A program made the translations under genes and the position numbers. A stretch of 52,521 nucleotides of DNA from Ardenticatenales bacterium (GTDB lineage Bacteria > Chloroflexota > Anaerolineae > Epilineales > Epilineaceae), in assembly GCA_020853525.1 (NCBI GenBank), contig JADYYS010000069.1:1-52521 (forward strand). The letters run 5' to 3'. The notes under the pieces are model-generated. The model was not told the DNA's origin and did not search any database. It worked only from the letters and a program-made list of their open reading frames with translations. Shown here one piece after another: positions 19,183 to 37,053 of the stretch. Position 1 is the first letter of the stretch; each line of letters starts with the position of its first letter.

Positions 19183-20506
19183 GATCACGCGGCCACGCCC
19201 ACGCGTCGGCGATCCAGGTCACGATCATCCCGAGCACCGCGGCGACGACGGCGAGCACCGCAATGACGATGAAGGCCATGGCCTTCCCGTAGCCGTAGTT
19301 CGTCAGGTGTGCGAACGGGGTGACGGCGTCCGGCGCTGTGACGACAAGCCAGCCGGCCACGGCGACCGCCGCCCCCCACGCGACCCCGTTCACCACGCTG
19401 ACCATGAAGCGGCGGGGCCAAGGGCGCATCCCTCGGCGCCGGCCGATGCGCCAGCACAACCGCGCGCCGGCGATGAGGACGAACGCAAACAGGGCGCGCG
19501 ACAGCCAGCGCGCCGCGATGCGCCACGCGCCTTCGGCCGGCTGGACGGACAGCGTCAACGCGTCGGCTGGAACGCCTTCGAAGTGCGCGGTGAGCCGGTC
19601 GCCGCGTCGTTCGAGGGCCGGCTCGCTCCAGGCGCGCCACCCGGGTGGGACTTCGACCGCGACGTCGAGCGTGCCGAAACCGGCCCAGCTCCGGGCGGGC
19701 GCAAGGATGTAGGCGAACTGGCGGACGATAAGCGGTTCGACCAAGTACGTGCCCGCGACGGCGCGGTAGCGGACGGTCAGGCGCGACGGGCCGGGAGGCA
19801 GCGACGCGTGAAACGTCGAAGGGCTTGGAGAGATCGTGTCATCACCGAACATCCCCGAGTACAGGTAGCTCTCCGGTCCGTCCGGCCCGGGTGCATAGAG
19901 AGGCGGGCGCCACTCGGGTTGCAGGTCCAAGTCGAGACGCCTGGCAGTGACCGGCCGATCGTCGACCGCGACGCGGAAGTCCCGGACGCGCTCGACGCCG
20001 TGGGCAAAGTGCAGGTCGACGATGCGGCCCGCACCGCCGTTCGCAAGGAAGTACGTGGCGGTGACGATCGCCGAGGAGCCCAAGTCAACCAGTCGTCTGC
20101 TGTCGTCGCCGAAATCGTCCGACGCGCCTGCGACTGCGGTGCTGCTGTCCACCGGCCGCAGATCGATCGCCAGCGTCTCGCTGACGATGCGGATCCCCGC
20201 CAGCCCGCCGACCTCGCCGACCGGCACGCCGCCGAAGCTCGGCACGCCCGCGTTGGCGACGGCGGGATTGGGGGCGGCGGCGAGGAGGGATGCGATGGTG
20301 CAGGCGAGAATGGTCGCGGTGCGGAGACGGACGATGGCCGGCAGCTGAAGCTGGCCGGCTGAAGGCGGCCCTGGCGGGCCGCCATGGTGCCCGCCTACGC
20401 GGGCACCCAGCAGTCGGCGGCGCCCGCGAAGGCGGGCGCAGTGGCCACAGGCCCCCAGCCGGCCGGCTTCAGCCGCCGGCTCTTTCGGCCCAACGTCATC
20501 GTCCAA
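19121..20506 (-). CDS. Membrane-anchored envelope protein of unknown function; start uncertain
   Basis: No family recognised. The body has a signal-peptide-like segment (RLRTATILACTIASLLAAA), a beta-rich extracytoplasmic part of about 270 residues, then three membrane helices near the C-terminus (for example RALFAFVLIAGARLCW and AMAFIVIAVLAVVAAVLGMI) and a Pro-rich tail. The start is odd. No ATG, GTG or TTG lies near the signal peptide; the first is a TTG at 20506, overlapping the stop of the upstream VWA gene, and the intervening 57 codons are the 144-bp palindromic repeat. A CTG at 20338, the last codon of the repeat, would give a short normal signal peptide. I list the longest frame; the real start may be 20338. 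It may be cotranscribed with the VWA gene. Confidence 0.65.
   Translation of the reverse strand: MDDDVGPKEPAAEAGRLGACGHCARLRGRRRLLGARVGGHHGGPPGPPSAGQLQLPAIVRLRTATILACTIASLLAAAPNPAVANAGVPSFGGVPVGEVGGLAGIRIVSETLAIDLRPVDSSTAVAGASDDFGDDSRRLVDLGSSAIVTATYFLANGGAGRIVDLHFAHGVERVRDFRVAVDDRPVTARRLDLDLQPEWRPPLYAPGPDGPESYLYSGMFGDDTISPSPSTFHASLPPGPSRLTVRYRAVAGTYLVEPLIVRQFAYILAPARSWAGFGTLDVAVEVPPGWRAWSEPALERRGDRLTAHFEGVPADALTLSVQPAEGAWRIAARWLSRALFAFVLIAGARLCWRIGRRRGMRPWPRRFMVSVVNGVAWGAAVAVAGWLVVTAPDAVTPFAHLTNYGYGKAMAFIVIAVLAVVAAVLGMIVTWIADAWAWPRDPTWPASGSPQTPQPPATPPR
20337..20480 (-). repeat. 144-bp palindromic MITE-like element, copy 1
   Basis: Ends CCGGCAGCTGAAGCTGGCCG... and its inverse, with two mismatches over 24 bp. 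A central hairpin GTGCCCGC-CTAC-GCGGGCAC is present. It matches the reverse complement of copy 2 (33031-33174) at 128 of 144 positions with no gaps. It lies across the 5' end of the 19121-20506 gene. Confidence 0.9.
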
Positions 20507-22493
20507 GCACCACCCCGCCCGGACACGGCAGCTCCCCCGCCAGCCCCTCGTAGATCCCGGCCAGCGCCGAGGCGTCGGCGGCGCGGTGGAAGCCGTCCGG
20601 GTCGGCGATGGCGCGCAGGAGCGGCTCGTCGATCGTGTCGCCGAGGCCGATCGTGTAGATCCGGATGCCGCGGGCGCGCGCGTCGGCGGCGGCGGCGAGG
20701 GCGGAGGCTGTGTCGGTGTCCGGGTCGGACAGGCCGTCGGTCAGGAGGATGATCGACTGGCTCCAGAAGGCGGGATCCCGGCTGAACGAGCCGACGATCG
20801 CCTGCATCGCCCGGTCGATCCGCGTACCCGGCGCCGTCGTCAGGCCGTCGATCGCCGCGTCGAGCGTCGCCAGTACGGCCTGCGCATCTGTGCCGCCGGC
20901 CCACGTGAAGGCCCCCGCGCCGCTGTTGAACGAGTCGATCCCGACGGTATCGCGCGTAAGGTCGAGCAGCCGGATGAAGCGCTTGGCGGCGGCCTTGGCC
21001 GCGTCGAGCTTCGTCAAGCCGCCGCTGACGTCGAGCATGCTCTGGGACGTGTCGATCGCCAGGACGACCTCCTTGGGTCGATCGACCACCTTGCACACCG
21101 CCTTCATCGCCAGCGGCAGGTACGCGCGCCCCGGCTCCGTCGTCGCCGTCGCGCTCGCCGTCGGCGTCGCGGTCGACGTCGCCGTGGCTGCGGGCGTCGG
21201 TGTGTCGGTCGGCGTCGGCGTGTCCGTCGGCGACGCCGTCGCGGTGGGCGTGGCGGTCTCGCGCAGGCAGGCGCTGACGTCGATCCGGCGGGTCGGGAGC
21301 GGGACGGGCCCCCACTTGCGGCCGAGGCTGTCCTCGAACTCGACGGCGGCGCCGGGGAGGCGGAGGTCGAGGCGGCCGGTCGCGACGGCGGTGATGCCGT
21401 ACGTGACGGTCAGGGCGGCGCCGCTCGAGAGGTCGGCCGCTTCCCACCGCTGCGTCGTGCCCGCGGTCACGCGGTTGGGCGTCGGGCGGGCGGAGCCGGG
21501 GAGGACGCGCCACAGCGGGGCGACGGAATCGACGAGCGTCAGCTTCTTGACGGTGAGCTTGCCGGCCTTCGTGATGAGGTCCTGGATGGCCGGGCCGACC
21601 TTCGTGGACTGGCCGAGGTCGAAGTAATAGCCGCGGCTGGCCATGTCGCGGATGTCGTTGCAGTGCGTGGCGGGCAGGACGAACGGCAGTCCGAACGGGC
21701 GGGCGCGCGGGTTGCAGACGCCGATGACCGTGATCCCGCTGCCCTGCGCCTTGTTCGCGCTGCCCTTCTGGCGGTTGCAGTAGTCCGGGAAACCGGTCGG
21801 ACAGCCCGTGCTGTAGAGGACCATCACGTCGATCGGCGGGACGACCTCCGATCGACGGCCCTCCTCGATCATCTGCGTGCCGCGGCCGAGCCAGTCGTAG
21901 TACTGCAGGAACGGGTTGACGGAATCGAGCGAGATCCCGCCGATCGCCCCCATGACCGATCCTTGGTCGCTCGTCAGCTCGAGATCGGAGTAGGCCTGCA
22001 CGGACAGGCTGATCACGCCGGCCTTCGTACCGGTGATGAACTTCAAGCTCTTCACAGCGTCGCGCGCCGCGCTCTTCACCTCGGCCAGGTGATCCTCCAT
22101 CAAGAGGTGCTTGGCCACCAGGAAGACGACGTGAACCGGCACGGCCTGCACGCACGTCACGCCGACGGTGACCGTGACGGCGTTCGTGTCGCAGATGCGG
22201 TGGGATCCGGCGCGCACGGTGTCCGTGACGAGGGCCCGGCAGCCGCTGGGTGAGGACGGGTCCCCGGCCAGGGCGCGGGCGGCGGGGCGAAGGCCGCCGG
22301 CGGCAGGTATGAAGCGTTGCGCTTGGGGCGCGGGCGCCGCTTGGGCGGCCGCAGGCGTTGGCACCCGGGTAGCGACCGCCAGCAGAGTGACGGCAAGGGC
22401 GGCGAAGGCCGCAGCCGCGGCCAGTGCTCCGAGACGCCGGTCGACCCGGCAATGGAACGGCCGCACAATCGGATGCAAGAAGGGTTCACCCAT
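20496..22493 (-). CDS. Secreted VWA-domain protein with Thr/Pro linker
   Basis: A 665-residue exported protein. After a signal segment (about 20-50) comes a first, degenerate VWA-like domain (about 115-305; its metal-site Ser residues are absent) and a beta-rich region. A linker of Thr/Pro/Ala repeats (about 411-456) is followed by AYLPLAMKAVCK and a complete VWA domain (about 475-650) with the metal-binding DTSQS and LLTDG motifs. VWA domains bind protein ligands through a Mg2+ site, so a surface adhesion or assembly role is likely. The YLP motif before the second VWA matches the tag at the ends of other secreted proteins here. ATG at 22493; it shares the palindromic CATG with the divergent gene, so one of the two starts may be elsewhere (a GTG at 22535 is the alternative). 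Confidence 0.8.
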   Translation of the reverse strand: MGEPFLHPIVRPFHCRVDRRLGALAAAAAFAALAVTLLAVATRVPTPAAAQAAPAPQAQRFIPAAGGLRPAARALAGDPSSPSGCRALVTDTVRAGSHRICDTNAVTVTVGVTCVQAVPVHVVFLVAKHLLMEDHLAEVKSAARDAVKSLKFITGTKAGVISLSVQAYSDLELTSDQGSVMGAIGGISLDSVNPFLQYYDWLGRGTQMIEEGRRSEVVPPIDVMVLYSTGCPTGFPDYCNRQKGSANKAQGSGITVIGVCNPRARPFGLPFVLPATHCNDIRDMASRGYYFDLGQSTKVGPAIQDLITKAGKLTVKKLTLVDSVAPLWRVLPGSARPTPNRVTAGTTQRWEAADLSSGAALTVTYGITAVATGRLDLRLPGAAVEFEDSLGRKWGPVPLPTRRIDVSACLRETATPTATASPTDTPTPTDTPTPAATATSTATPTASATATTEPGRAYLPLAMKAVCKVVDRPKEVVLAIDTSQSMLDVSGGLTKLDAAKAAAKRFIRLLDLTRDTVGIDSFNSGAGAFTWAGGTDAQAVLATLDAAIDGLTTAPGTRIDRAMQAIVGSFSRDPAFWSQSIILLTDGLSDPDTDTASALAAAADARARGIRIYTIGLGDTIDEPLLRAIADPDGFHRAADASALAGIYEGLAGELPCPGGVVLGR

Positions 22494-24567
22494 GCCAGCC
22501 ACCCGCCTGTTCGCATGCTGCCTCGGCAACGACACATGTTCCGTGCGTCGCAGTATGCCGCCGACACGCGGTTGTGGCCACCACGCGCCACGGATTGTCC
22601 TTCGTCAGGCCATCGTCGCCGCCGTCGCGATGTCCGCACTCGTTGCCGCGGCGCCCGACACGCGCCCCCTCGCCGCGACCGACGCCGCCCCCGCCCCGAT
22701 CGTCCACGGTCACGTCCTGTCCAAGCGCTGGGTCTACATCCAGAACAACTTCCAGGTGGCCGCCAACATCCGGCGCGTGACGGACATCCTGGACGCCGCC
22801 AGGGCCGCCGGCTTCAACGGCGCCGTCTTCAGCGACGTGAAGTTCGACCGGCTGGACGACGGCTCGCTGATCGACGACTACTACACGAACCTGCGCGCCG
22901 TCCTGGACCATGCGCGCTCGATCGGGATGACGGTGCTGCCGAGCACGGCCAACTTCGGCTACTCGTCGTCGCTGCTGTGGCACGACCCGGACCTGGCCGA
23001 GGGGCTGCCGGTGAAGGATGCGCCGTTCCGGGTCGTCGCGGTCAGTCCGACGGTGCCGCCAAACCACTTCAACGCCAAGCTCGTCCCCGTCGACGACGGC
23101 GTGCGGCTGGCGAACGGCGACTTCGAGCAGTTGCCCGCCTCGGGCGACACGTTTCCCGGCTGGGCGTTCCAGGACGCGCCCGGCACGGCCACGTTCGTCG
23201 ACCGCATCGTGAAGCGCTCCGGCGCGGCATCGATCCGCATGACGGACCTCGGCACGACGAATCCGGGCAGCGGCAACGGGCGTGTGTATCAGCGCCTGGC
23301 GGTCGAGCCGTTCCGGTACTACCACCTCTCGGTGTGGATCCGGACGCAGAGTCTCAGCGGCGGCGAAGTACGAGCGCTCGTCCTGGCGCAGAACCCGTCG
23401 CGCACGCTGCAGTGGAACCCCGTACCCGTCGCCGCCAACCAGGAATGGACGCGCTTCGACGCGACGTTCAACACGCTCACGCACCGCGAGGTGCTCGTGT
23501 ACCTGGGCGTCTGGGGCGGCGCCGCGGGGACGATCTGGTGGGACGACGCGTCGATCGAGCCGGCCGGATTCGTGAACCTCATTCGCCGTGGAAGCACGCC
23601 GCTCATGCTGATGTCACCCGACAAGGGCATCGAATACGAGGAATCGCGCGATCTGCCCGAACTGCGCGACGTCGCGATGGGCCGCGTGCCCTACAACGGC
23701 GTCTACGACCTCTGGCACGAGCCTCCACAGGCTTTCGTCTACGCCGACATGCCGGGATCGCGCCTCCACGTCGACGACATCATCCTCGCCAGCTACCACC
23801 ACGTCGCCGCCGTCTACGGCGACCAGGTCACCGCCAGCCTGACCGTCCCGAAGGTCTTCGACCTCCTCGACGTCATGCTGCGAAGCACGCACCGCGAGTT
23901 CGCCGCCGCCGGCGCGTTCGGCGGCTGGATGTTCAACCACGACGAGATCCGCGTGCAGGGCTGGGACGAGAGCCGCGGCTTCGGCGACGGCTCGCCGGGC
24001 GCCGATCTGGCCGGCAACGTGTCGCGGCTGCGCGACATGGCGCGCGCAATCGACCCTGCGGCGCCGGTCTACGTCTGGTCGGACATGTTCGACCCGTTCC
24101 ACAACGCCGCCGACACCGCCGACCCGTACTACCTCGTAAACGGCAACTGGTCCGGCAGCTGGGAGGGCCCGGCGCCCGACATCACCGTGCTGAACTGGAA
24201 CCACGGCCCCAAGGCCCGCGCGTCCGCCGCGTTCTTCAGCAGCCGCGGCCACCGCCAGATCCTGGCCGGCTACTACGACACGCCGCCCGCGCGCTTCAAC
24301 GACCGCCAGTGGCTGGCGGCGCTCGAGGGCGTGCCCGGCATCGACGGCGTGATGTACACGCAGTGGGGCAGCGGCTACGACCGGCTGGCGGCGTGGGCGG
24401 AGCACGTCTGGGGCGGGGCCGCGTGGGTGTCGCCGCCCCCCGCTTCCACCGGAACGCCCGCGTCACGCGAGACGCCCGGTCCCGCGCCGACGCTGACGCC
24501 GACCACACCGCCGATGTCGCCTTCCCGGGCGCCGCTGTGTCTACCATGGGCAGCGCGAGGGCGATAG
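22492..24567 (+). CDS. Secreted GH20-like glycoside hydrolase with inserted CBM-like domain
   Basis: A 691-residue exported protein. A TIM-barrel-like fold starts at about 75 (VYIQNNFQVAANIRRVTDIL, GFNGAVFSDVKFD) and is interrupted at about 205-357 by a jelly-roll resembling CBM4/9 (NGDFEQLP, WAFQDAPGT, RYYHLSVWIRT, IWWDDASIEPAG). The barrel resumes with GGWMFNHDEIRVQGW; the Asp-Glu pair (about 484-485) is placed like the GH20 hexosaminidase dyad, followed by PVYVWSDMFDP and GVMYTQWGSGYDRL. A Pro/Thr linker leads to the end LCLPWAARGR. Likely substrate is an amino-sugar glycan, but this is inference. Start: ATG 22492 has AAGGG upstream but overlaps the divergent start; ATG 22555 would still leave a signal peptide. 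Confidence 0.65.
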   Translation: MPATRLFACCLGNDTCSVRRSMPPTRGCGHHAPRIVLRQAIVAAVAMSALVAAAPDTRPLAATDAAPAPIVHGHVLSKRWVYIQNNFQVAANIRRVTDILDAARAAGFNGAVFSDVKFDRLDDGSLIDDYYTNLRAVLDHARSIGMTVLPSTANFGYSSSLLWHDPDLAEGLPVKDAPFRVVAVSPTVPPNHFNAKLVPVDDGVRLANGDFEQLPASGDTFPGWAFQDAPGTATFVDRIVKRSGAASIRMTDLGTTNPGSGNGRVYQRLAVEPFRYYHLSVWIRTQSLSGGEVRALVLAQNPSRTLQWNPVPVAANQEWTRFDATFNTLTHREVLVYLGVWGGAAGTIWWDDASIEPAGFVNLIRRGSTPLMLMSPDKGIEYEESRDLPELRDVAMGRVPYNGVYDLWHEPPQAFVYADMPGSRLHVDDIILASYHHVAAVYGDQVTASLTVPKVFDLLDVMLRSTHREFAAAGAFGGWMFNHDEIRVQGWDESRGFGDGSPGADLAGNVSRLRDMARAIDPAAPVYVWSDMFDPFHNAADTADPYYLVNGNWSGSWEGPAPDITVLNWNHGPKARASAAFFSSRGHRQILAGYYDTPPARFNDRQWLAALEGVPGIDGVMYTQWGSGYDRLAAWAEHVWGGAAWVSPPPASTGTPASRETPGPAPTLTPTTPPMSPSRAPLCLPWAARGR

Positions 24568-24686
24568 GATTCCCATCGGCGGGTGCTAACGGTCAGTGTG
24601 TCGTCTGCGTTGGTGGCGCCGATTCGGACGATACTCTCGTCATCCGCGAGCGTCACCGCCATCTTCACCGCATCGGAGGCATCACC

Positions 24687-27600
24687 GTGGCCACCTCGAT
24701 TCGTACACCCCTTTCAAACCCCCTCCACCCGCGATTCGGCCGCCCGCTGCTGTTCACCGCCACCCTCGCCGTCGCCGTCGCTCTGGCCGCCGGCTGGGTC
24801 GGAGCGCGGTCGGCGATGCCCAGCGTGTCCGTGGTACCGGCCCCACACGTCGTCCGCGCCCAGAATCCCGCGTCGTCCGGCCCGGCCTACGCCCTGCCGG
24901 TGCTGAACTTCTTTCATCAGGACGACGTCTGCGAGTCCTGGGTGGCCGTCCAGAACGCCGGGGATCGGCCGGGGCAGCCGGTCATCGCGTTCCTCATCGA
25001 GCCTTCGACCAACGGCACGGTCCGTCCTTCGGATCGGATGGACCCGTGGCCGGGCACTCCGGGCCGGGTGAGCTGCGGCGGCCTCCTCCGGCCGGGCGCC
25101 AGCTGGAACTTCTACGGCGCCCAGATCGCCACAGGCAGCCGCTCCGGCATCGTGCTCAGCCTCGCCGGCACGACGCTGACGGCGGCCGTCGCCGACACGA
25201 GCGCCGGCGACGACGTCGTCGGCGGCCGACTGTGCGAGCTCATCCGCACGCGCGTCGCGGACGACCCGGCCCGCTGGCGGGCATTCGTGGCGGCGTGGCA
25301 GTCCGGCGCCGCGTGGGAGGGCGTGCCCCTCGGGCGCGTCGCCGGTCCGCCGTTGAACGTCCACGTCCATCGCAGCTGCCCCGGCCAGGCGTCGCCCGGG
25401 ACCGACACCACGGATGCGTATGCCGCCCCGCGGATCGTCCCGCGTTCCGCCGGCAGCCACCGCGCCGTCTTCGCCCCGCTGTCCAAGCCGGTCGTCATCC
25501 GGACGCAGCCGCGGGGCGGCACGCTCTATGTCCAGAACACGGGCGTCGTGACCGGCACGTACCGCGTGCGCTACCAGGCGGCCGATGCCTGCGCGCCGCC
25601 GCCGCCGGCCGAGACGCTCGTGCTCGGGCCGCTGGACGCCGCCGACTTCGACCTCATGCGCGCGCCCGACGGCTGGCGCGGCCAGGCGATCGTCGAGGGC
25701 GATGCGCCGTTCGCACTCGTCGGAGAGCCGGCGGCCGACGACGTGTGCGCGGCCGAAGCGGTCGTCTCCACACCGGACGGCGCCGTCGCCGGCGACCGCG
25801 GCCCGCTGGCGGCCGTCGTCCCGCTCGTCGCCGGCGCGCATCGGCTGACGGTCGACGTCGTGAACACCGGCCGGAGCCCGTTCACGCCGCGCGTCACCGT
25901 GTACGGACCGGCCGGGCGGACCGCTGCGCCGATCGCCCCGCCCATCACCGGCGGCAGTCTCTGTCCCGGCGGCCACTGGTCGACGGCGGACATCATCGTG
26001 GCGGACGGCCGGCTGGACGCATACCTCGTCTGGATCGAAGGACCGTCCGCGGACGGCGCCGGCGCGCTGGCCGCGATGGTGCAGGTGGAAGCCGTCCGCA
26101 CCGGCGGTTCGAACGTTCCCGGCGTCACGGTCCGTGCGTCCTACGACGTCACGGCACGGCCGGCGAACGGCACGGCGCGGACGGCCGACGTCCGCCCGAT
26201 CGGCCTGCCGGCCACGTTCAACGATCTCGAGAACTCGGGCATCGGCCACGTGATCGCCGTGGCCCGAACCGGTTCGGGTACCGGGCAGCTGGATTATGTC
26301 GTGCAGCTGTACGATCGGAACGGTCTCGTCGATCGGATCTGCCGGACGGTGATGGATGCCGCCACGGATATCGTCGACCTGTCGGCCGGGGCCGGCCCGC
26401 TGGACGGCACGAAAGCGTCGGCCCTCGTCGCGGCCGTCGGCTGGAGCGGCGCCGAGCCGCCCGGCGATCTGGCGGTCACGGTGCTGTCGGTCAAGGGGAC
26501 GCACATCACCAGCGATGCGCCGGGCGATACGCACTCGGCCGTTGCCGGCACGCCGTTGGACGTGGCGTGGTCGCAGGTGGCGGCGGCCGGGCCGTGCGGG
26601 CCGCAGGTCGAACCGGCGCCGCGGCCCGTCCTGGACGCCACACCGCTGCGCGCCGCGCTGTTCGTGCCCGTGGTGACGTACGTCGGTCAGGACATGGTGT
26701 GCACGGCCGAGGTGCGCGTCACGAACGACGGCGCTGCGCCGGCCGAGGTCGTCCGGATCCTGTGGGGCGAGCCCGGCTTCTGCGAGCCCGACTGCGCGCC
26801 GCCGATGGCGATCCGGTGCTCGCCGCTCATCGCCCCGGGCGCCGGCTTCACGTTCGTGGAGCAGCCGGACCCGAACAGCGGCGTCCTCCTCAGCCTGGAC
26901 GGCCGCTCGCTCGACGCCCTCGGCATCGCGCCGGGCGACGCCCGGACCGCGGCGTCGGTGCTGTGCGCCAGCGCCGCGCTGGCTGAGAGCTGCAATGGCT
27001 GGCGTCGGCTTTGGCTGGCCTGGCAGACCGGCGGCACGTTCGCCGGCCTGCCGCTGGACCGTGTCATCGGCGGCAGAGTGGCCGCCGTCGTGACGCGCAC
27101 CTGTCCGGAGACGCCGCGCACGCCGGCCCTCGGACCGGCGAGCTACCCGGCGGTCCAAGCCGCCGATGCGCTGGCCGGCGAAACCCAGCCGGACCGCTTC
27201 GTCTACAGCGCCGCGGACGTCCGCGTTCCGGACAACATGCGGTCGGCGAGATCGGATGATGGGGTCATCGCCTACATCCAGAACGCCGGGACGCGCTGCG
27301 CCGCCGTCACCTTCACGTTCGTTTCAGCGACGGCACCGACCGGGCGCTGCGACATCGCCACGCTCAGCCCCGGCGAGACGTACCCGCTCGATGTCGAGGA
27401 TTGCATCTCCGGCCCGTGGCACGGCATCCTCATCTTCTCGTCCGACGAGCCGCTGGCGATCACGATCGACCACATCGCGAACCCGATGACGAGCAGCGTC
27501 GTCGTTCGCGGCGCGTTGCCGCCGCCGACCGTCGATCCGCTCGAGACGCCGGGGGCCACGAGCACGAGCCGGCAGCCGACGGCCACACCGACCGGCGTCG

Positions 27601-27698
27601 CCCCGACCCCCGAGACGCCGACGCCGGTGCCATCGCCGACCGAGGACGCTCAGGAGCGACTCTTCCTGCCGCGATTGCTGCGGCATCCGCTGCCGTAG
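24687..27698 (+). CDS. Large secreted repeat protein (paralogue A) with Thr/Pro linker and FLP tail
   Basis: A 1003-residue secreted protein of no named family. GTG start at 24687 with GGAGG 7 bases upstream. After a signal peptide (about 18-40) come a first half with DDVCESWVAVQNAG (about 77) and LYVQNTG (about 280), a middle module around NDLENSG...YDRNGLVDRICR...VKGTH (about 512-605), and a second half with DMVCTAEVRVTN (about 668), CSPLIAPGAGFTF, SLDALGIAPGDA and AYIQNAG (about 862). The halves share a VC-x-VxN and QN-x-G pattern, so the protein looks built from duplicated beta-domains with paired Cys. It ends in a Thr/Pro linker and RLFLPRLLRHPLP. The next gene encodes a full-length paralogue; a third member is at the right edge. 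Location outside the cell is inferred; function unknown. Confidence 0.8.
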   Translation: MATSIRTPLSNPLHPRFGRPLLFTATLAVAVALAAGWVGARSAMPSVSVVPAPHVVRAQNPASSGPAYALPVLNFFHQDDVCESWVAVQNAGDRPGQPVIAFLIEPSTNGTVRPSDRMDPWPGTPGRVSCGGLLRPGASWNFYGAQIATGSRSGIVLSLAGTTLTAAVADTSAGDDVVGGRLCELIRTRVADDPARWRAFVAAWQSGAAWEGVPLGRVAGPPLNVHVHRSCPGQASPGTDTTDAYAAPRIVPRSAGSHRAVFAPLSKPVVIRTQPRGGTLYVQNTGVVTGTYRVRYQAADACAPPPPAETLVLGPLDAADFDLMRAPDGWRGQAIVEGDAPFALVGEPAADDVCAAEAVVSTPDGAVAGDRGPLAAVVPLVAGAHRLTVDVVNTGRSPFTPRVTVYGPAGRTAAPIAPPITGGSLCPGGHWSTADIIVADGRLDAYLVWIEGPSADGAGALAAMVQVEAVRTGGSNVPGVTVRASYDVTARPANGTARTADVRPIGLPATFNDLENSGIGHVIAVARTGSGTGQLDYVVQLYDRNGLVDRICRTVMDAATDIVDLSAGAGPLDGTKASALVAAVGWSGAEPPGDLAVTVLSVKGTHITSDAPGDTHSAVAGTPLDVAWSQVAAAGPCGPQVEPAPRPVLDATPLRAALFVPVVTYVGQDMVCTAEVRVTNDGAAPAEVVRILWGEPGFCEPDCAPPMAIRCSPLIAPGAGFTFVEQPDPNSGVLLSLDGRSLDALGIAPGDARTAASVLCASAALAESCNGWRRLWLAWQTGGTFAGLPLDRVIGGRVAAVVTRTCPETPRTPALGPASYPAVQAADALAGETQPDRFVYSAADVRVPDNMRSARSDDGVIAYIQNAGTRCAAVTFTFVSATAPTGRCDIATLSPGETYPLDVEDCISGPWHGILIFSSDEPLAITIDHIANPMTSSVVVRGALPPPTVDPLETPGATSTSRQPTATPTGVAPTPETPTPVPSPTEDAQERLFLPRLLRHPLP

Positions 27699-27976
27699 TC
27701 GTCGGGCGCTGCCCTGCCTACGCAAGTGCGCAGACCCATGCACAGGAAAGTCCTTTCCCCCAACCCGTGATCCTCCCCCTCCCCCAGACTGTTCGACGGG
27801 GTCCCCGCCGCACCGAAGGTGCGGTGGGGTTCGGGAGGGGGTCGGGGGGTGAGGGCCTTGGGCCGGACGGCTGCGCGATCTTCGCCGGTTCGCCTGGCAT
27901 CCTTTCCCATCCGTCGTGTGTCGAATCACCAGCACCAAGCCGCGCACGGCCGCCCACCCGCCCAGGAGCCCCGCCG
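27699..27976. other. Intergenic region with a triplet-loop hairpin
   Basis: There is no credible gene in these 278 bases. A hairpin at 27803-27829 has 12 pairs (one G-T) around loop GAA, flanked by C-rich and G-rich runs that could extend the pairing. It may terminate the upstream gene. Its build is like the hairpins at 18272-18493. Confidence 0.5.
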
Positions 27977-30900
27977 ATGTCGACCCGACGCCCGCTGCTC
28001 GCCGCGACCGCCCGCGCCGCCGTCGCCACCGCTGCGGTCGCCGCCGCCGCCGGGTTCACGGCCGGCCGCCACGTCGGACGCCGGCCGCTCGACGACGCCG
28101 AGCGGCACAGCGTCGCGGCCCAGGGGGAGCCGGGCCCGGTGTACGCGGTCCCGGTCCTCGAAAAGCTTGGAGACGACGACGTCTGCGAGTCCTGGCTGGC
28201 CGTGCAGAACGTCGGCGGGGAGGCCACGCAGGGCGTGCTCGTCGTCCTGGGCGGCGCGGCGCCGGGCGCGGCGGGCGATCCGCTGCACAGCTTCCCGATC
28301 GGGGTGATGTGCACCGGGCTGATCCAGCCCGGCAGCAGCTGGCACTTGGTCGGCGCGCTGATCCCCGACGGCGTGGACCCGAACGCCCCGCCGACGCCCG
28401 GCGGCTCGCTCACGGCCCGCCAGCGCACCACGCCCAACCGCGTCGGCCGCCGCGCCGCGCTCGTCTTCAGCGTCGCGCCCGACCGCCTGGCGGACATCCT
28501 GGACCACTCGGAAGGTGCGGCCGAGGACGACATCGCCGCCAACCGGCTGTGCGAGCTCCTGCACGACCACGCCCGCGCGAGCAGTGCCGCGTGGTCGGAG
28601 TTCCTGGCGGCGTGGTGGAGCGGCGGCCCATGGCACGGCCTGCCGCTCGGCGCCGTCGCCGGCGCGCCGCTGCGGGTCCAGGTCCACCGCACCTGTCCGG
28701 GCCCGGAAACGCCCGGCGTCGACGCGACCGGCAGCTATGACGCGCCGCGCGTGCCGGCTGCAGGCGCCGGCGCATGGCGGTCGGTCGTGGGCGGGTTGCA
28801 CAGCGTCCGCACCGGCCGGGGCCGCGTGTCCGTCCTCTACTTGCAGAACGTCGGTCGCCACCGGGCCGCCGTGAGCGTCCGCTTCCAGGCCCAGGGCGCG
28901 TGCGCGCTCGACCCGTCCACCAGGACGTTCAGCCTCCAGCCCGGTGATGCCGGTTACGTCGAGATCGGCGATGCCGTGGACGACGGCTGGCACGGCAGCG
29001 CGCTGGTCGAGGCGGACCAACCCGTCGTCGTCGCCGCCGAGGACGTGCATGGCGACAGCATCCGGCTCGACGTCTCGCCGGCCGCCGCGGTCGGCGCACC
29101 CGAGCCCGCCGGACCGCGCTACGCCAGCGTGCTGCTGGCGCAGGATGCCCACACCGTTTCGGCGCACGTCGTCAACGCGGGCACGATGACCCTGCGGCCG
29201 CGCATGACGATCCACGATGCAGAGGGCGACCTCGAAACGTCGCCGGTCGAGGGCGAGCCGCTCTGCCCGGGCGGCAGCGCGACCCTCAGCCTGCCCGTCA
29301 CCCCGTCCGACCCGGCGGGAGGCGCGTACCTCGTGACGGTCGACGCCGTGGGCGACGGCGCGGGCGCCGCCCAGCTGCCGGCGACGATCGAGGTCGCGCG
29401 GCCCTCGCCGCTCCTGGGCGCCGGCGCGCTCCAGGCCTACACCGTGGCCGCACGCACGATCCCTCCCGCCGCCGGCGTCGCCGGGATCGCACCGCTGGCC
29501 GTTCCCGCGGCGATGCACGCGCTCGAGACGTTCGGCCGGGACATCGAGCTCAGCATCTCGTTGACCGGCGACATCGCGGGCACGCTGGAATACGCCGTCC
29601 TGGCGTACGACCACAACGGCCTCGTCGGCGGCGCCTGCCGAACGTTCGCGACCGGCCACAGCGATGTCCTGTCGATCGCCGACCTGCCCGGCCTGCCGAC
29701 GAACATGCTCGGCGCCGCCCTGATCGTCGCCACGGCGTGGTACCCCGCGCCCGACGCGCTCGGCCCGCCGGGCGGCCTCGTGGCCTCGGTTCTCACACGC
29801 CACGGCACGTTCGCGGGCGAGGAAGCGCCGGGCGACGAGATCGCCGCCGCCCTCGCGCTGCCCGTCGAGGGCGGAACGGCGGCGATCGTCCCGGCGCCGC
29901 CGTGCGCCCCGGTCGTGGAGCCGCCGCCGGTCGCGGCGTCCGAGGACGCGCTGGCCCAGGCGGTGCTGTTCGCGCCGACCGTCAGCTACGCCGGGCTGGA
30001 CAACGTCTGCCTGGCCGCCGTGCGCGTCACGAACCGGTCCTCGGCGCCGGGCCAGTTCGTCGCCCTCACGTTCTACGAGCCGGGGTTCCTGGATCCCGAA
30101 TGCTCCGGCCCGCTCAACGCGGTCTGCACGCCACTGATCGCCCCGGGCGCAAGCTGGGACTTTCTTGACCCCGACGTGGGCGGGAGCGCATCGGCCGTCA
30201 TCGTCGGCTTGAAGGGCTCCTCGCTCGACGCCCTCGGCCTCGTGCCGGGCGAGTCGCGATCCGCGGCCGACATCCTGTGCGAGGAAGGCACCCTGATGGG
30301 CGAGTGCGCGGCCTGGCGCCGCTTCGCCCTCGCGCTGCGCACCGGCGGCCCCGTGCACGGCTTCCGCCTGGCCGACGTCGCCGCGCCGATCTCGGCCGTC
30401 GTCGCCCGCAGCTGCGACAACGTGGCCGACATCCGGGTGAAGGACGTGGCCAACTACGCCGCCGTACCGCTGGCCGACGTCGTCCGCGGCCGGACGCGAC
30501 CGGAGCGCTACGTCTACACCGTCGCCCGCGCCCTCGGCTCGGTCGCCGACCCGGCCGACCCGGTCGATCCGGACAAGCCGCACGAGGGCGTGATCTACCT
30601 CCAGAACGCCGGCGAGCGCAGCGTCAGCATCGGGTTGACGTACCACGGCGACGACGGAACCGTTTCCGGCTGCTCCGTGTTCGCCCTCGCCTCGGGCGAG
30701 ACGTACGCCCACTACGTGACGGACTGCCTGAGCGAGCCGTGGGTGGGCTGGTTGTCCATCGCCGCCGACGGGCCGCTGGCGGTGATGACGGACGTCGAGA
30801 TCGATCCGGTGACCAGCCGCGCCGCGACGGCCGGCGGCGACCGGTGCGACGTGAACGCGGACGGCGCGGTCGATGCGATGGACGTGAGGTCGGTCTACAC

Positions 30901-31189
30901 CGCCAGGAACAGCGCCCCCGGCGGCCGCCGCTGGAACCCGCGCGCCGATCTCGACCTCTCGGGCCATGTCGACACGGTCGACGTCGAGTTGGTCGCCGCG
31001 TGCATCGCACCGATCCCAAGACCCACCGACATCCTCCTCTTGCGCCCGACCGATCCGACTCCGACGCTCTGGTCGCCGTTGGAGACACCCGGCGCGGACG
31101 GCACGCCGGGGCCGGATCCGACGGCGACGACGGATGGGCGGAGCGGAGCGATCTACCTGCCCTACGGCGTCTCCAACCGCCGGCGTTGA
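27977..31189 (+). CDS. Large secreted repeat protein (paralogue B) with dockerin-like domain and YLP tail
   Basis: A 1070-residue tandem paralogue of the preceding protein, alignable over its whole length: DDVCESWLAVQNVG (about 66), YLQNVG, the middle module HALETFGRDIELSISL...YDHNGLVGGACR (about 512-610), DNVCLAAVRVTN (about 674) and YLQNAGERS. It differs by an added dockerin-like domain at about 955-1010: two calcium-loop repeats, DVNADGAVDAMDV and DLDLSGHVDTVDV. A Thr/Pro-containing spacer and the end AIYLPYGVSNRRR follow. Dockerins bind cohesins to dock proteins on scaffolds; no cohesin is visible in the window. ATG at 27977 with AGGAG 8 bases upstream; the N-terminus has a twin-Arg-free signal peptide. 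Confidence 0.82.
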   Translation: MSTRRPLLAATARAAVATAAVAAAAGFTAGRHVGRRPLDDAERHSVAAQGEPGPVYAVPVLEKLGDDDVCESWLAVQNVGGEATQGVLVVLGGAAPGAAGDPLHSFPIGVMCTGLIQPGSSWHLVGALIPDGVDPNAPPTPGGSLTARQRTTPNRVGRRAALVFSVAPDRLADILDHSEGAAEDDIAANRLCELLHDHARASSAAWSEFLAAWWSGGPWHGLPLGAVAGAPLRVQVHRTCPGPETPGVDATGSYDAPRVPAAGAGAWRSVVGGLHSVRTGRGRVSVLYLQNVGRHRAAVSVRFQAQGACALDPSTRTFSLQPGDAGYVEIGDAVDDGWHGSALVEADQPVVVAAEDVHGDSIRLDVSPAAAVGAPEPAGPRYASVLLAQDAHTVSAHVVNAGTMTLRPRMTIHDAEGDLETSPVEGEPLCPGGSATLSLPVTPSDPAGGAYLVTVDAVGDGAGAAQLPATIEVARPSPLLGAGALQAYTVAARTIPPAAGVAGIAPLAVPAAMHALETFGRDIELSISLTGDIAGTLEYAVLAYDHNGLVGGACRTFATGHSDVLSIADLPGLPTNMLGAALIVATAWYPAPDALGPPGGLVASVLTRHGTFAGEEAPGDEIAAALALPVEGGTAAIVPAPPCAPVVEPPPVAASEDALAQAVLFAPTVSYAGLDNVCLAAVRVTNRSSAPGQFVALTFYEPGFLDPECSGPLNAVCTPLIAPGASWDFLDPDVGGSASAVIVGLKGSSLDALGLVPGESRSAADILCEEGTLMGECAAWRRFALALRTGGPVHGFRLADVAAPISAVVARSCDNVADIRVKDVANYAAVPLADVVRGRTRPERYVYTVARALGSVADPADPVDPDKPHEGVIYLQNAGERSVSIGLTYHGDDGTVSGCSVFALASGETYAHYVTDCLSEPWVGWLSIAADGPLAVMTDVEIDPVTSRAATAGGDRCDVNADGAVDAMDVRSVYTARNSAPGGRRWNPRADLDLSGHVDTVDVELVAACIAPIPRPTDILLLRPTDPTPTLWSPLETPGADGTPGPDPTATTDGRSGAIYLPYGVSNRRR

Positions 31190-31213
31190 TCGACGATCGC
31201 CGGGTCGTCGATC
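31188..31213 (+). terminator. Hairpin at the stop of paralogue B
   Basis: GATCGACGA (31188-31196) pairs with TCGTCGATC (31205-31213), loop 8 bases. No T-run follows. Confidence 0.35.
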
Positions 31214-31321
31214 CACCGGGGGCGTTGTTGCCGTCCACGTCTATCGGACATCGACTGCGTCGCGTTCTGCCCTGCGTCGAGATGTGGCAGCGCCTGTGAT
31301 GCGCCGAACGGGAGGTCCGCC

Positions 31322-32998
31322 ATGAACTGTCGACAACCGTCGCTGTGCCGCCGCGTGATCGGCACCGGCCTGACATTCGCCGCCGCCCTCGCCTGCATCC
31401 TCGCGATCGACAGCGCCTTCGGTGCGACGCTGCGTTCGGCGAAGCGCCTCGCCCCGTCTGCTGGCGCCGCCCCCCTCGCCGACTGTGCCGGCACCTCCAC
31501 CGGCCTGATCCCGATCGACGCACTCGGCGCCGCCGGCTATCAGGGCTTCGCCGGCGGCCTGTACGGCCGGGGCGCCAACGTTCCGCCGCCCGCCCACGTC
31601 GCGCTCGCCGCCGCCCGCGCCGCCGCCATCGTGCCGCGCGGGGCGGACGGGACGCCGGCCGCCGACGGCACCGTCGTGCTGCTCAGCCTCGGCATGTCGA
31701 ACGCGACCCAGTCGTTCAGCCGGTTCATCCAGCTGACGCAAGGCATCGGCGGACTCCACCCGCGGCTCAGGATCGTCGACGGGGCGCAGGGCGGACAGAC
31801 GGCGGCCGTGATCCGCGACCCGGCCGCCAACTTCTGGCGCGTCGTCGACCAGCGGCTGCAGGCGGCGGGGGTCACGGCCGCCCAGGTGCAGGTGCTCTGG
31901 ATCAAGGAAGCCGATGCCGGCCCGCGCAACGGCTTTCCGACGTACGCTCAGACGCTCGCCGACGAGCTCGGCGACGTCGTCCGCCTGGCCGCGACGCGCT
32001 TCCCGAACGCCCAGCTGGCGTACTTCAGCAACCGCACGTATGCCGGTTACGCGTCGACGACACTCAACCCAGAGCCCTACGCCTACGAGTCGGCGTTCAG
32101 CATCCAGTGGCTCATCCGCCGCCAGATCGACGGCGACGCATCGCTCAACGCCGATTCGGCCGCCGGTGCCGTCGTCGCTCCGGTCCTCCTGTGGGGCCCC
32201 AACCTCTGGGCCGACGGCCTTAACGCCCGCACCGACGGACTGTGGTACGCCTGCACGGACTTCGTCGACGACGGCACGCACCCCTCGCCCGACGGCCGCC
32301 TCAAGGTGGCCACGCTGCTGGACGCTTTCTTCCGGCGTGACGCGACGGCCCGCCCGTGGTTCGTCGCCGACCCCGCCGACCCGCTCCCGCCGCCGCCTTC
32401 CTGGCCGCCCCCGCCGACGCCCGGTCCGACGGCCACGCCCGGCGGCGCGACACCCGCCCGCCCGACGCCGACGGCCGGCACCCCCCGCCCGACGCCGCCG
32501 CCCCTCACCCCCGGCGCACCCCACAGCTTCCGCGTGCACGAGCGGCCGAGCGGCGCGACGATCTGGATCGTGACCGACACCGACCTCCTCCTCCGACGGC
32601 TGCGGATGCTGGACGGCTCGCGCGCGGCATGGCTGTGCGGCACGATCGCCCCGCAAAGTTGGGAGGGCGGTTTCACGCTCGAGGATCCGAACCGGACGCT
32701 CGAGCTCGCCCCCCCGCCGGCCGACCGGCAGTCGACGGTGCGCGCGATCTACGGCGACCGGACGGCGCTCACGGGACAGGTCCGCTGCATCCAGATCGAC
32801 CGGATGTCGGACGAGTCGCTGCGGTCGCCGCCCGGCGTGCCGCCGACGGACACCCCGCCGGCCGGAACCGCGACGGCGAATCCGTCCGCGACGCCGTCCG
32901 CCACACCCACCGTACACGCCCTTTCGACGCCTACGCGATCCGATCTGCCGGGGCCGGCGCTCACCGTATTCCTGCCTGTCGCGCGGCGCGACTGGTAG
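31322..32998 (+). CDS. Secreted SGNH-like hydrolase with Thr/Pro linkers and FLP tail
   Basis: A 558-residue exported protein. After the signal peptide (about 10-35), residues about 115-345 look like an SGNH/GDSL-type esterase: block I is LLSLGMSNATQS with the likely nucleophile Ser in GMSN, and block V is DDGTHPSPDG with the Asp-x-x-His pair. The substrate could be acetylated glycans, but that is inference. A Pro/Thr linker (about 353-398) separates a second beta-rich domain (about 400-515). A second Thr/Pro linker and the tail TVFLPVARRDW close the protein. GGGAGG lies about 8 bases upstream of the ATG. Confidence 0.75.
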   Translation: MNCRQPSLCRRVIGTGLTFAAALACILAIDSAFGATLRSAKRLAPSAGAAPLADCAGTSTGLIPIDALGAAGYQGFAGGLYGRGANVPPPAHVALAAARAAAIVPRGADGTPAADGTVVLLSLGMSNATQSFSRFIQLTQGIGGLHPRLRIVDGAQGGQTAAVIRDPAANFWRVVDQRLQAAGVTAAQVQVLWIKEADAGPRNGFPTYAQTLADELGDVVRLAATRFPNAQLAYFSNRTYAGYASTTLNPEPYAYESAFSIQWLIRRQIDGDASLNADSAAGAVVAPVLLWGPNLWADGLNARTDGLWYACTDFVDDGTHPSPDGRLKVATLLDAFFRRDATARPWFVADPADPLPPPPSWPPPPTPGPTATPGGATPARPTPTAGTPRPTPPPLTPGAPHSFRVHERPSGATIWIVTDTDLLLRRLRMLDGSRAAWLCGTIAPQSWEGGFTLEDPNRTLELAPPPADRQSTVRAIYGDRTALTGQVRCIQIDRMSDESLRSPPGVPPTDTPPAGTATANPSATPSATPTVHALSTPTRSDLPGPALTVFLPVARRDW

Positions 32999-33028
32999 CC
33001 CGTCACATCTCGATTTGCGGACGACGAA

Positions 33029-33176
33029 CCACCGGCAGCTGAAGCTGGCCGGCTGGTGGCCTTCGGCCATTGCGCCCGCCTTCGCGGCCGCTTCGGACTT
33101 CTGGGTGCCCGCGAAGGCGGGCACCATGGCGGCCCGCCAGGGACGCCTGCAGCCGGCCAGCTTCAGCTGCCGGTGG
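33029..33176 (+). repeat. Palindromic MITE-like element, copy 2 (perfect 27-bp inverted ends)
   Basis: The ends, 33029-33055 and 33150-33176, are perfect inverted repeats of 27 bp. The core unit of 144 bp is 33031-33174. Inside is the hairpin GTGCCCGC-GAAG-GCGGGCAC. It is the inverse-orientation partner of 20337-20480 (89% identical, ungapped). It sits between the SGNH gene and the nadC stop. No clear target duplication. Confidence 0.92.
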
Positions 33177-33202
33177 ATTGCGCCTCGCCGTCATCCGCAG
33201 AT

Positions 33203-33214
33203 CGTCACGTGACG
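33203..33214. repeat. 12-bp palindrome
   Basis: CGTCACGTGACG, between the palindromic element and the nadC stop. It could be a protein-binding site or part of a terminator; nothing else in 33177-33287 is recognisable. Confidence 0.3.
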
Positions 33215-33287
33215 GCCTGTCGATCACGGCGGACGGCCGGCAGCGCTGGTCCTCGGGCGGTCAGCGTTGACCGCCGTCAACGCGACC

Positions 33288-34178
33288 TCACGCCACCACC
33301 ACGTCCAACGCCACATCCAACACCGGCGCGCTGTGCGTCAACGCCCCCACCGACAGGTAGTTCACGCCGGTCGCCGCCATCTCGTGCGCCGTCGCCAGCG
33401 TGATCCCGCCGGATGCCTCGGTGACGAACCGCCCGTCGATCCGCCGCACGGCCTCGCGCAGCGTCGCCGTGTCCATGTTGTCCAGCAGCACGACGTCGGC
33501 GGTCCTTTGCGCGGGCATCGCCAGCAGCTCGTCGATCTGATCGAGCGCCGTCACCTCGACGCTCACGACGACCATGTGGCCGACGTGCGCCCGCGCCCGC
33601 CGCACCGCCTCCCCCACGCCGCCCGCCACGGCCACGTGGTTGTCCTTGATCAAGACGGCGTCGTCCAGCCCGAAGCGGTGGTTCGAGCCGCCGCCGCACA
33701 AAACGGCGTGCTTCTCGATCGCGCGCAGGAGCGGCGTCGTCTTGCGCGTGTCCGTGATCCGCGCCCCCGTCCCGGCCACGGCCTCGACGAACGCGCGCGT
33801 GAGCGTCGCGATGCCGCACAGCCGGCCCAGGACGTTCAGCGCCACCCGCTCCGCCGCCAGGACGCCCCGCGCCGGCCCATCGACGGCGGCCAGCAGCGCG
33901 CCGGCTTCCACGCTGTCACCGGCGCCGGCGTCGAGGGAGACGCGAATCGACGGGTCGACGATCCTGAACACTGCCGCCGCCACGTCGAGCCCGGCCACGA
34001 CGCCTGCGCGACGCGCCACGATCCGCGCGCTGGCCGTCGCCGCCTCCGGGATCACCGCCGCGGACGTGATGTCGCCCGCCCGCCCGAGGTCTTCGGCCAG
34101 CGCGGCGCGCAGCACCGGCTCGTAGACCAGCGGCAGGAGCAACGGGACTCCGTCCTGCCCTGTGATCCTCGCGCTCAT
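33288..34178 (-). CDS. nadC: Nicotinate-nucleotide pyrophosphorylase (carboxylating)
   Basis: Converts quinolinate plus PRPP into nicotinate mononucleotide, the third step of de novo NAD synthesis. The 296 residues show DTRKTTPLLRAIEKHAVLCG, GGSNHRFGLDDAVLIKDNH, VEVT, LLDNM and EASGGI, all quinolinate phosphoribosyltransferase signatures, and the expected length. The ATG at 34178 overlaps the nadB stop (ATGA), so translation is coupled; an upstream start would add residues lacking homology. Last gene of nadA-nadB-nadC. Confidence 0.96.
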   Translation of the reverse strand: MSARITGQDGVPLLLPLVYEPVLRAALAEDLGRAGDITSAAVIPEAATASARIVARRAGVVAGLDVAAAVFRIVDPSIRVSLDAGAGDSVEAGALLAAVDGPARGVLAAERVALNVLGRLCGIATLTRAFVEAVAGTGARITDTRKTTPLLRAIEKHAVLCGGGSNHRFGLDDAVLIKDNHVAVAGGVGEAVRRARAHVGHMVVVSVEVTALDQIDELLAMPAQRTADVVLLDNMDTATLREAVRRIDGRFVTEASGGITLATAHEMAATGVNYLSVGALTHSAPVLDVALDVVVA

Positions 34179-35887
34179 CGCACGCCGTCCCCGCTCGCCA
34201 GCACGACGAACTGCCGCCGCGCCCACCGCGCATCGTCCGGCAGCGGGAAGTCGCTCCGGTAGTGCGCCCCGCGGCTCTCCTCGCGCGCCGACGCGGCCTC
34301 CGCCACCAGGCGCCCGACGAGGGCCAGGTTCCGCGCCTCGATCGCGCCAACGGTGATCGCGCCGTCGTAGGCGAGTGCTGCCTCGGCGGCCGAGAACGCA
34401 CGCTCGGCGGCGCGCAGTCCGACCGCATCGCGCACGAGGCCGACGTCGTCCCAGGCGGTCTGGCGAATGCGGGCCGTGCGGGCGTCAACGTCGGTCGTGT
34501 CGGTCGGGTCGGCGATGGTCAATGGGGTGCGAGCGACCACGTGATCGGAGGACGCGGGATCGAACGCGGGATCGAAGGTCGCGCGCGTCGGCCACGGGCC
34601 CGCGCCGCCGCCGGCGATGTCGTCGGCGACGTGGCCGCCGAAGGCGATCGCCTCGAGGAGCGAGTTCGAGGCGAGGCGGTTCGCACCGTGCACGCCGGTG
34701 CTCGTCACCTCGCCGCATGCCCACAGGCCGGGCATGGACGTCCGGCCGCGGCCGTCGACGGCGATGCCGCCCATGTGGTAGTGCGCGGCGGGGGCCACCG
34801 GGATCCGGTCGCGGCGCGGGTCGAGGCCGTACGCCCGGCAAAGACGGAAGACCGTCGGGAAGCGCGTCGGGAAGCGGTCGCCGACAGCGGTGCGCGCGTC
34901 GACGTAGACGGTGCGGCCCTCGGCCAGCTGGCGCCAGATCGACCGGGCCACGACGTCGCGCGGCGCGAGCTCGGCCAGCGGGTGCTCGTCGACGAGGAAG
35001 CGGCGATCCCGCTCGTCGACGAGGACGGCGCCCTCGCCGCGCAGCGCCTCGGTGAGGAGCGGCAGCGGGTCGGCGCCCGGCGCGGCCAGCGCGGTCGGGT
35101 GGAACTGGACGAACTCGAGGTCGGCCAGCACGGCGCCGGCGCGGGCCGCCATCGCCAGACCGTCGCCGGTGTTCTCGGGCGGGTTCGTCGTGTTCGCAAA
35201 GAGGTGGCCGATGCCGCCCGTGGCCAGCACGACGGCGGGCGCGCGCAGCGTCGTCACCCGGCCGCTCGGCCCGACGACCCGCACGCCGCCGACCGCACCG
35301 GCTTCCACGTGCAGCGCAAACGCCGCGTGCTCCGTCCGCTCGTCCACCCCCGGCGCCTCCAGCACCGCGCCGGCCAGCGTGCGGACGATCGCGCCGCCCG
35401 TCGCATCCCCGTCCGCGTGCAGGATCCGCCGCTGGCTGTGCGCCGCCTCACGCCCGAGGAGGAGCGTCCCGTCCGCGTCCCGGTCGAACGGCGTGCCGAG
35501 CGCCAGCAGACGCGCCACGACGCCCGGCCCCTCGGCCGTGAGCGCCTTGACGACGTCCGGCACGGCGATCCCGCCGGCCACCGAGATCGTGTCGGCCGCG
35601 TGCTCGGCCGGCGTATCGCCCTCCCCGACGGCGGCCGCCAGCCCGCCCTGGGCGTAGACGCTCGACCCGCCGACGAGGGTCGCGGTCTTCGTGACGACGG
35701 CGACGCGGCGCCCGTGCGCGCCGGCCAGGCCGAGCGCGGCGGTCAGCCCGGCAACGCCCGCGCCGACGATGATCACGTCGAACGTCGCGGACGCATCGTC
35801 GTTCCCGCGGTCGTCGCTCGTCGACGTGCCGACCGTCAGCGTCGCATCGGCCCCCGGCGTCGCATCCGGGTCCGAAGCGTCAGCCAC
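34175..35887 (-). CDS. nadB: L-aspartate oxidase
   Basis: FAD enzyme that oxidises aspartate to iminoaspartate, feeding NadA. The 570 residues include the dinucleotide-binding [12 protein letters not shown] (about 41-52), [15 protein letters not shown], the active-site region [37 protein letters not shown], and [22 protein letters not shown] followed by [14 protein letters not shown]. The GTG start overlaps the last bases of nadA. The first 35 residues are acidic and nonconserved, so a later start is possible. The C-terminal helical domain is complete. Confidence 0.96.
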
Positions 35888-36929
35888 GCGTGCCGCGCCC
35901 GACGGCCAGCATCCGCTCGACCGCCTGTCGCGCCCGCGCAGCCACGGCCTCGTCGACCGTCACGCGGTGCGTCATCGTCTCGAGGCTGACGCGGACCTTG
36001 GGCAGCGTGATCCGACCCATGTGCGGGCAGAGCTGGCACGGCCGGATGAACTCGAGCTCCGGGAACTCGGCGGCCACGTTGTCGCTCATCGAGCACTCCG
36101 TCATCAGCGCCACGGAAGCGGGACGGCGCGCGGCCACCTGCTTGATCATCGCGCTCGTCGAGCCGACGAAGTCGGAGGCCGCAAGCACCTCGGGCGGGCT
36201 TTCGGGGTGGGACAGGATGAGGACACCGGGCCGGGCGGCACGCAGTGCGTCCAGATCGGCGGCGGTGAAGCGCTCGTGGACCATGCAGTGGCCCTTGTAA
36301 TCAATGATCTCGACGGTGGTCTGCGTCGCGACCCAGGCGGCCAAGTACTCGTCCGGCAGGAAGAGGACGCGGTCGCTGCCGAGGGACTCGACGACCTCGA
36401 CGGCGTTGGCCGAGGTGCAGCAGATGTCGCTCTCGGCCTTCACCTCGGCCGACGTGTTCACGTACGTGACGACCGGCACGCCGGGGTGCTCGGCCCGCAG
36501 CCGGCGGACGTCGGCGCCGGTGATGCCCTCGGCCAGCGAGCAGCCGGCGCGCAGGTCCGGGATGAGGACGGTCTTCTCGGGGTTGATGATGGCGGCCGTC
36601 TCGGCCATGAAGTGGACGCCGCACAGGACGATCACCTCGGCGGCGGTCTCATTGGCCATCTGCGCCAGCGCCAGCGAGTCGCCCCTGAGGTCCGCCACGC
36701 CGTGGTAGATCGTGGGCGGCATGTAGTTGTGGGCCAGGATGATCGCGTTCCGCTCGCGCTTCAGCTCGTTGATCCGCGCGATGAGCGGTGCGACGATCGG
36801 CCACTCGATGTCGGGCACGCTCTCGCGGAGCCGCTCGCGGACGTCGGCGGTGGCGGCGGCGACGGCGGCGGTGTAGGGCAGCGGGCGGTTGTCGAACAGC
36901 GTTGGGGGGGCGGGGGTTGTCGTCGTCAT
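35880..36929 (-). CDS. nadA: Quinolinate synthase
   Basis: A [4Fe-4S] enzyme that condenses iminoaspartate with dihydroxyacetone phosphate to quinolinate. The 349 residues contain [21 protein letters not shown] (Cys 103), [10 protein letters not shown] (Cys 170/171), and [12 protein letters not shown] (Cys 301 probably the third ligand), plus the SHPESPPEV and GSTSAMI repeats. The ATG at 36929 has AAAGG 9 bases upstream; a longer start at 37031 would cross the promoter. First gene of the nad operon. Confidence 0.97.
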
Positions 36930-36984
36930 GCGCTGGGCCTTTGCAGAGGGGAATTGCGGGGCCGTCGTCGGCGCCGCATGCGCC

Positions 36985-36990
36985 ATTATA
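36985..36990 (-). promoter_or_regulatory. -10 element of the nadABC operon
   Basis: TATAAT on the minus strand, 55 bp before the nadA ATG. The -35 region is GC-rich and not recognisable. Confidence 0.5.
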
Positions 36991-37053
36991 GGCCGGTGGG
37001 GAGAGGGGGACCGGTCCGTGGTCCCTTGCACGCTGCCTGCGTGGGTGCTCCGC

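Follow-up and report, generated by a model that had tools for sequence, protein, structure and literature searches.

The window analysed here, a stretch of 52,521 nucleotides on contig C69 of a 4.27-Mb draft genome in 76 contigs, carries two inverted copies of a repeat of about 144 bp, and the question it raises is what this repeat is and which enzyme may have moved it. The match between the two copies, described in an earlier sequence-only reading, was reproduced: a gap-free alignment of copy 1 (20337-20480) with reverse-complemented copy 2 (33031-33174) gives identity at 128 of 144 positions, compared with 75 matching positions in the best of 200,000 random 144-bp pairs taken within the window. 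The 27-bp perfect inverted ends reported for copy 2 were also borne out, their length depending on the edges chosen (25 bp for 33031-33174; 27 bp for 33029-33176), and copy 1 has perfect inverted ends of 6 bases only. Folding of both copies is far stronger than that of shuffled sequence (z -10.2 and -7.7). Both are intergenic, copy 1 lying just beyond a stop codon, with 16 bases separating it from the final base (20496) of a VWA-domain gene on the minus strand. At copy 2 the repeated unit extends past 144 bp, to about 32996-33219. Minus-strand NAD biosynthesis genes follow in succession just beyond copy 2 (33288-37031): quinolinate phosphoribosyltransferase, an FAD-binding oxidase (likely nadB), and quinolinate synthase.

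Alignment of 46 copies resolves the repeat into a core of 142 bp (range 139-147) that consists of six hairpins in the order end, second, inner, and then inner, second, end in inverted orientation (three plus three inverted). The features in the window are listed below, the hairpins without strand.

20338..20479, minus strand (reverse relative to copy 2): copy 1, 142-bp core only, no clear outer arms
20338..20358: copy 1, left end hairpin, A-T version (sequence and hairpin model)
20364..20383: copy 1, left second hairpin (sequence and fold)
20386..20407: copy 1, inner hairpin, GTG...CAC version (fold)
20420..20439: copy 1, inner hairpin, GCG...CGC version
20443..20453: copy 1, right second hairpin (sequence and alignment)
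20459..20479: copy 1, right end hairpin, G-C version (alignment)
32996..33219, plus strand: family A unit holding copy 2, 224 bp, with outer inverted arms
32996..33031, plus strand: left outer arm of this unit
33032..33173, plus strand: copy 2, 142-bp six-hairpin core
33032..33052: copy 2, left end hairpin
33058..33068: copy 2, left second hairpin, GGCC-TTC-GGCC
33072..33091: copy 2, inner hairpin, GCG...CGC version, one stem base broken in this copy
33104..33125: copy 2, inner hairpin, GTG...CAC version
33128..33147: copy 2, right second hairpin
33153..33173: copy 2, right end hairpin
33174..33219, minus strand: right outer arm of the family A unit

Of the palindromic 144-bp unit proposed earlier, the inverted match thus stands; the single long palindrome, and the one internal hairpin per copy, give way to six local hairpins, and at copy 2 the 144 bp are only part of the unit. 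Under the local hairpin model, standard pairs fill 99.3% of cells over the 46 copies, and changes on both sides of a pair affect 11 pairs and 51 cells, against 4.1 pairs and 11.4 cells in shuffles. The end-to-end palindrome model yields 94.7% standard pairs, and its 3 pairs and 6 cells with changes on both sides are not above shuffles. At one position of the end hairpin the left and right sides differ in 29 of 45 copies, and each side is paired with itself in all but one copy. Because covariation lies within hairpins and not end to end, constraint, or templated correction, acts on single hairpins rather than on one long palindrome; templated correction within hairpins could be an alternative source of the compensatory changes. 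The inverted ends are near-perfect because two similar hairpins face each other, and more generally long 'perfect inverted ends' can arise as a by-product of such an arrangement. The former view of selected, perfect ends around diverged interiors is not supported: compensatory changes run within each end hairpin rather than between the ends, and the inner hairpins are conserved about as well as the end hairpins. A conserved GT[AG]G (GTAG) foot was not found at the core ends in a flank profile of 29 armless ends. We do not claim the excess of GAAC near the core (6 of 29 ends), since distant windows reach up to 5.

The two window copies belong to a large family. BLAST of the genome scored at least 40 candidates and listed at least 81 matches (both strands counted), and the genome-wide search suggested earlier, run with the 22-base end motif at up to 3 mismatches, gave 66 forward and 66 reverse matches, compared with 4 and 0 for the motif read backward; the family is thus not limited to the two copies in the window. 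By pairing of end-motif matches we tally about 75 to 80 core copies, many of them cut at contig ends, in genomic surroundings that are mostly unrelated. The repeat is a main cause of the draft's assembly breaks. Draft contigs that start or end within a copy include C7, C11, C18, C21, C32, C33, C35, C41, C47, C50, C57, C64, C66, C70, C72 and C74, in addition to others. The element was absent from all 40 relatives searched, with short partial matches in three; given this absence and the distance of the nearest genomes, comparison between genomes supplies no empty sites. An Rfam search returned no match, and copy orientation followed no signal in local GC skew (13/30, p 0.58). A check of the flanks for target duplication had also been proposed; none was evident when the flanks of core-only copies were read, with boundaries placed without empty sites to fix them.

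Two groups of cores are embedded in larger units. Family A, to which copy 2 belongs, is a 224-bp unit with outer inverted arms, of which 50 arm ends were found, and among those listed all adjoin a core; family B has arms with GGCGTGTYTGCAAAC and 20 arm matches, all next to a core. Both families terminate at CTAG-like 4-mers in mostly unrelated surroundings. For the unit holding copy 2 the left border reads CTGG and the right one is degenerate, and in only one of ten full family A copies do the two borders agree (4-mers read by eye). Coreless A or B ends were not found in the genome, so empty sites within the genome are lacking as well. Core identity is 96% within A and 97.5% within B, compared with 83% for core-only copies, which argues that A and B carried their cores along as they were amplified, and that this happened more recently. 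A unit of 142 bp at every copy does not hold for these two families, which spread as larger units. Ten copies are armless on both sides and end abruptly at the core, including the two beside the transposase gene described below. Some other armless flanks are weakly similar to A or B arms (Mann-Whitney p 0.0013), and part of the armless set may therefore be decayed units. On contig C8 (L073:1-330), at a contig end, an A unit directly abuts a B unit, with one CTAG common to both. Family C, a third kind of repeat (71 bp; for example L068:6427-6497, L062:2081-2151 and L154:325-395, with other sites), has inverted ends TACYCYRYCACTG and CTAG borders, lacks the hairpin core, and occurs alone or chained to A or B units via shared CTAG.

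The earlier statement that no transposase is nearby holds for the window, but a candidate TnpA is present elsewhere in the genome. Two Y1 transposase genes were found:

C9:35232-35678: IS200-like HUH TnpA gene, 148 aa
C59:59073-59573 (L067:1074-1574): second Y1 gene, relative of REP-type transposases, Y---NP

The motifs of the C9 TnpA are intact (DHVH, WQ, YIRSQKTHH), its score with the IS200/IS605 transposase family model is 65.5 bits (cut-off 55), and its PDB relatives, among them ISHp608 TnpA, are annotated as transposases. The tail of the protein differs from that of Acidobacteriota homologues; as it resembles the tails of the nearest relatives, the gene looks intact. The nearest named relatives are Chloroflexota. 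By the motifs printed in Table 1 of PMC6006769, rather than by the published profile, the protein fits subclass 1.2 (DH[IV]H, WQ, Y---Q--HH, about 148 aa). The survey characterises that subclass by DH[IV]H, WQ and YIKNQKEHH, with 148 aa as the median length, and lists no REP association for it. An inverted pair of core copies, 95% identical to each other, brackets the gene at a distance of 95 bp on its upstream side and 504 bp on its downstream side. The joint chance of two flanking copies is about 1.5e-5 by copy density, or about 1e-3 when only intergenic DNA is taken as open to copies. The guess of a RAYT-like enzyme pointed in the right direction. Between TnpA and the downstream core (L066:1259-1700) sits an apparent broken remnant of a longer gene, possibly DUF72-like, although a Pfam scan of one frame gave no match. 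Imperfect 31-base tandem repeats are found upstream of the second Y1 gene.

The same layout recurs in other genomes. The gene is flanked by a pair of inverted repeats, one on either side (within 300 bp of it, E <1e-3), at 32 of 49 homologous loci, a sample collected with peptide patterns and hence not random, compared with 0 of 144 controls (same-geometry placements in the same loci). At the homologous loci inspected in other phyla, hairpin arrays face each other across the gene. An Acidobacteriota genome (ACE_ACI1) holds two gene-less dimers of hairpin arrays, and a Terriglobia genome has 26 array matches, mostly single arrays. Among class-level relatives, inverted repeats are present at a minority of the homologous loci (11, the window genome's own not counted), and a search for gene-less copies in one of these genomes (G054) found none. 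The two Acidobacteriota dimers (L195, L196) are themselves enclosed by inverted outer arms that carry GTGTGATTCAAAGTGCGACACA, an arrangement reminiscent of families A and B.

We consider it fairly probable, judging from these sequence comparisons, that the core is a REPIN- or PATE-like, gene-less and non-autonomous derivative of the C9 TnpA element that partly rides in CTAG-bordered MITE-like units. The core would correspond to an IS200/IS605-type element reduced to its two ends, each a hairpin array, minus the transposase gene. IS608 TnpA and TnpA_REP recognise hairpins on single-stranded DNA; the C9 TnpA would recognise the core hairpins in the same form, and would cut and move the core in trans. 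Families A and B would add a second route of spread as whole units, probably via a second, CTAG-directed enzyme. We infer the binding, cutting and moving of the core by TnpA, as well as the second enzyme for A and B, since no transposition was observed. The observations in favour are the copy family, the hairpin covariation, the gene between copies, the same layout at homologues, and the gene-less dimers elsewhere; the family and the candidate gene also support the earlier notion of a dispersed, MITE-like, non-autonomous repeat in need of a trans-acting enzyme. Against the TnpA reading, the C9 gene is flanked by two complete cores and its homologues by two half-arrays, 504 bp and a gene remnant separate it from one core, few class-level loci have inverted repeats, and G054 is without gene-less copies. 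Moreover, recent copying may not be the work of TnpA, as the groups amplified last, A and B, spread as larger armed units.

One rival is an ordinary DDE-type MITE, in which the whole A or B unit is mobile via an IS5-like transposase in trans, the core is a passive passenger, and core-only copies are old units with decayed arms. Families A, B and C do resemble the MITEs of DDE insertion sequences (IS5-like, CTAG targets) in being short, with inverted ends and CTAG-like borders, and this rival would accommodate the constant company of A and B ends and cores among the matches listed, the tight A and B cores, the weak arm similarity in some armless flanks, and a CTAG-bordered family that has no core at all. 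It sits badly with the ten copies that end abruptly at the core on both sides and with family A borders that seldom agree, and it leaves both the TnpA gene between two armless copies and the hairpin covariation unexplained. Nor did a search of one DDE family (DDE_Tnp_1) find an autonomous relative with A or B ends, or any other matching transposase: the sole DDE_Tnp_1 gene found has unrelated ends and was rejected as the driver of A and B. On balance we regard the DDE-type explanation as unlikely. The DDE gene itself (C35:22815-23291, L167), which we read as putative ISH3-like, is inserted in a helicase-like gene and has ends like CAGTAGTTCCCGACAG.

The hairpins might instead be kept for a role in the host (as transcription ends, in RNA stability, or as sites bound by proteins) and have spread through recombination, the adjacency to a transposase being due to chance. 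Constraint on hairpins would serve RNA functions too, and the intergenic position of both window copies, with copy 1 just after a stop codon, would suit such a role; the low chance of two copies flanking the transposase, the same layout at homologous genes, and the mobile appearance of the amplified A and B groups make it improbable all the same. The idea that the core is moved by the second Y1 gene rather than by the C9 TnpA has in its favour that the former is a relative of REP-type transposases. No core copy adjoins it, however, and its only neighbour of this kind, about 280 bp downstream, is a member of family C, so that we give this idea hardly any credence.

Returning to the core as a gene-less derivative of the C9 TnpA element, its closest parallel is the REPIN or REPtron with its TnpA_REP (RAYT) (PMC3116915, PMC6006769), which likewise combines an inverted palindromic pair, many copies, a flanked HUH Tyr transposase gene, and compensatory hairpin changes. 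The core appears to work like a REPIN. It differs in having three hairpins per arm instead of one and core ends without a GT[AG]G foot, and the C9 transposase is of class 1 (Y---Q--HH), whereas TnpA_REP is of class 2 (Y---NP); as the foot and an adjoining class 2 transposase are absent, the core is not a REPIN in the strict sense. PATEs, the palindrome-associated gene-less derivatives of IS605-type elements in Haloquadratum (PMC3119063), are similar in being too short for a transposase and in near-terminal palindromes related to IS200/IS605-type ends. PATEs also lack target duplication; at core-only copies none was evident with boundaries placed without empty sites. In contrast to PATEs, the core is bacterial and has inverted three-hairpin arrays at its ends, some copies are nested in CTAG-bordered units, and a whole transposase gene is flanked by full gene-less copies. 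TIRtrons, with their TIRYTs, also have a Tyr transposase gene between long inverted repeats, some of them self-complementary, in repeated families or dimers, according to the accessible part of PMC3733652, in which six-hairpin units are not described; known TIRYTs are assigned to subclasses 2.1, 2.2 and 2.5 (PMC6006769), unlike the subclass 1.2-like C9 TnpA.

For this branch of TnpA, no report of a transposase between hairpin repeats was found in the open-access literature searched. Possibly, though we propose this only tentatively, a class 1 (subclass 1.2-like) TnpA lineage forms REPtron-like systems of its own across several phyla, with multi-hairpin ends and multiplying gene-less dimers that in some genomes ride in CTAG-bordered units, and thus with two routes of spread. 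If true, such a system would represent a surviving halfway stage from an IS200 element to a REPIN. In 2011 REPINs were proposed to have arisen from the palindromic ends of an ancestor resembling IS200 (PMC3116915). This proposal becomes testable, because the C9 transposase, which is closer to IS200 than to the known REP transposases, is found among gene-less hairpin-array copies, and because both states, gene-bearing and gene-less, are seen among its homologues in other phyla.
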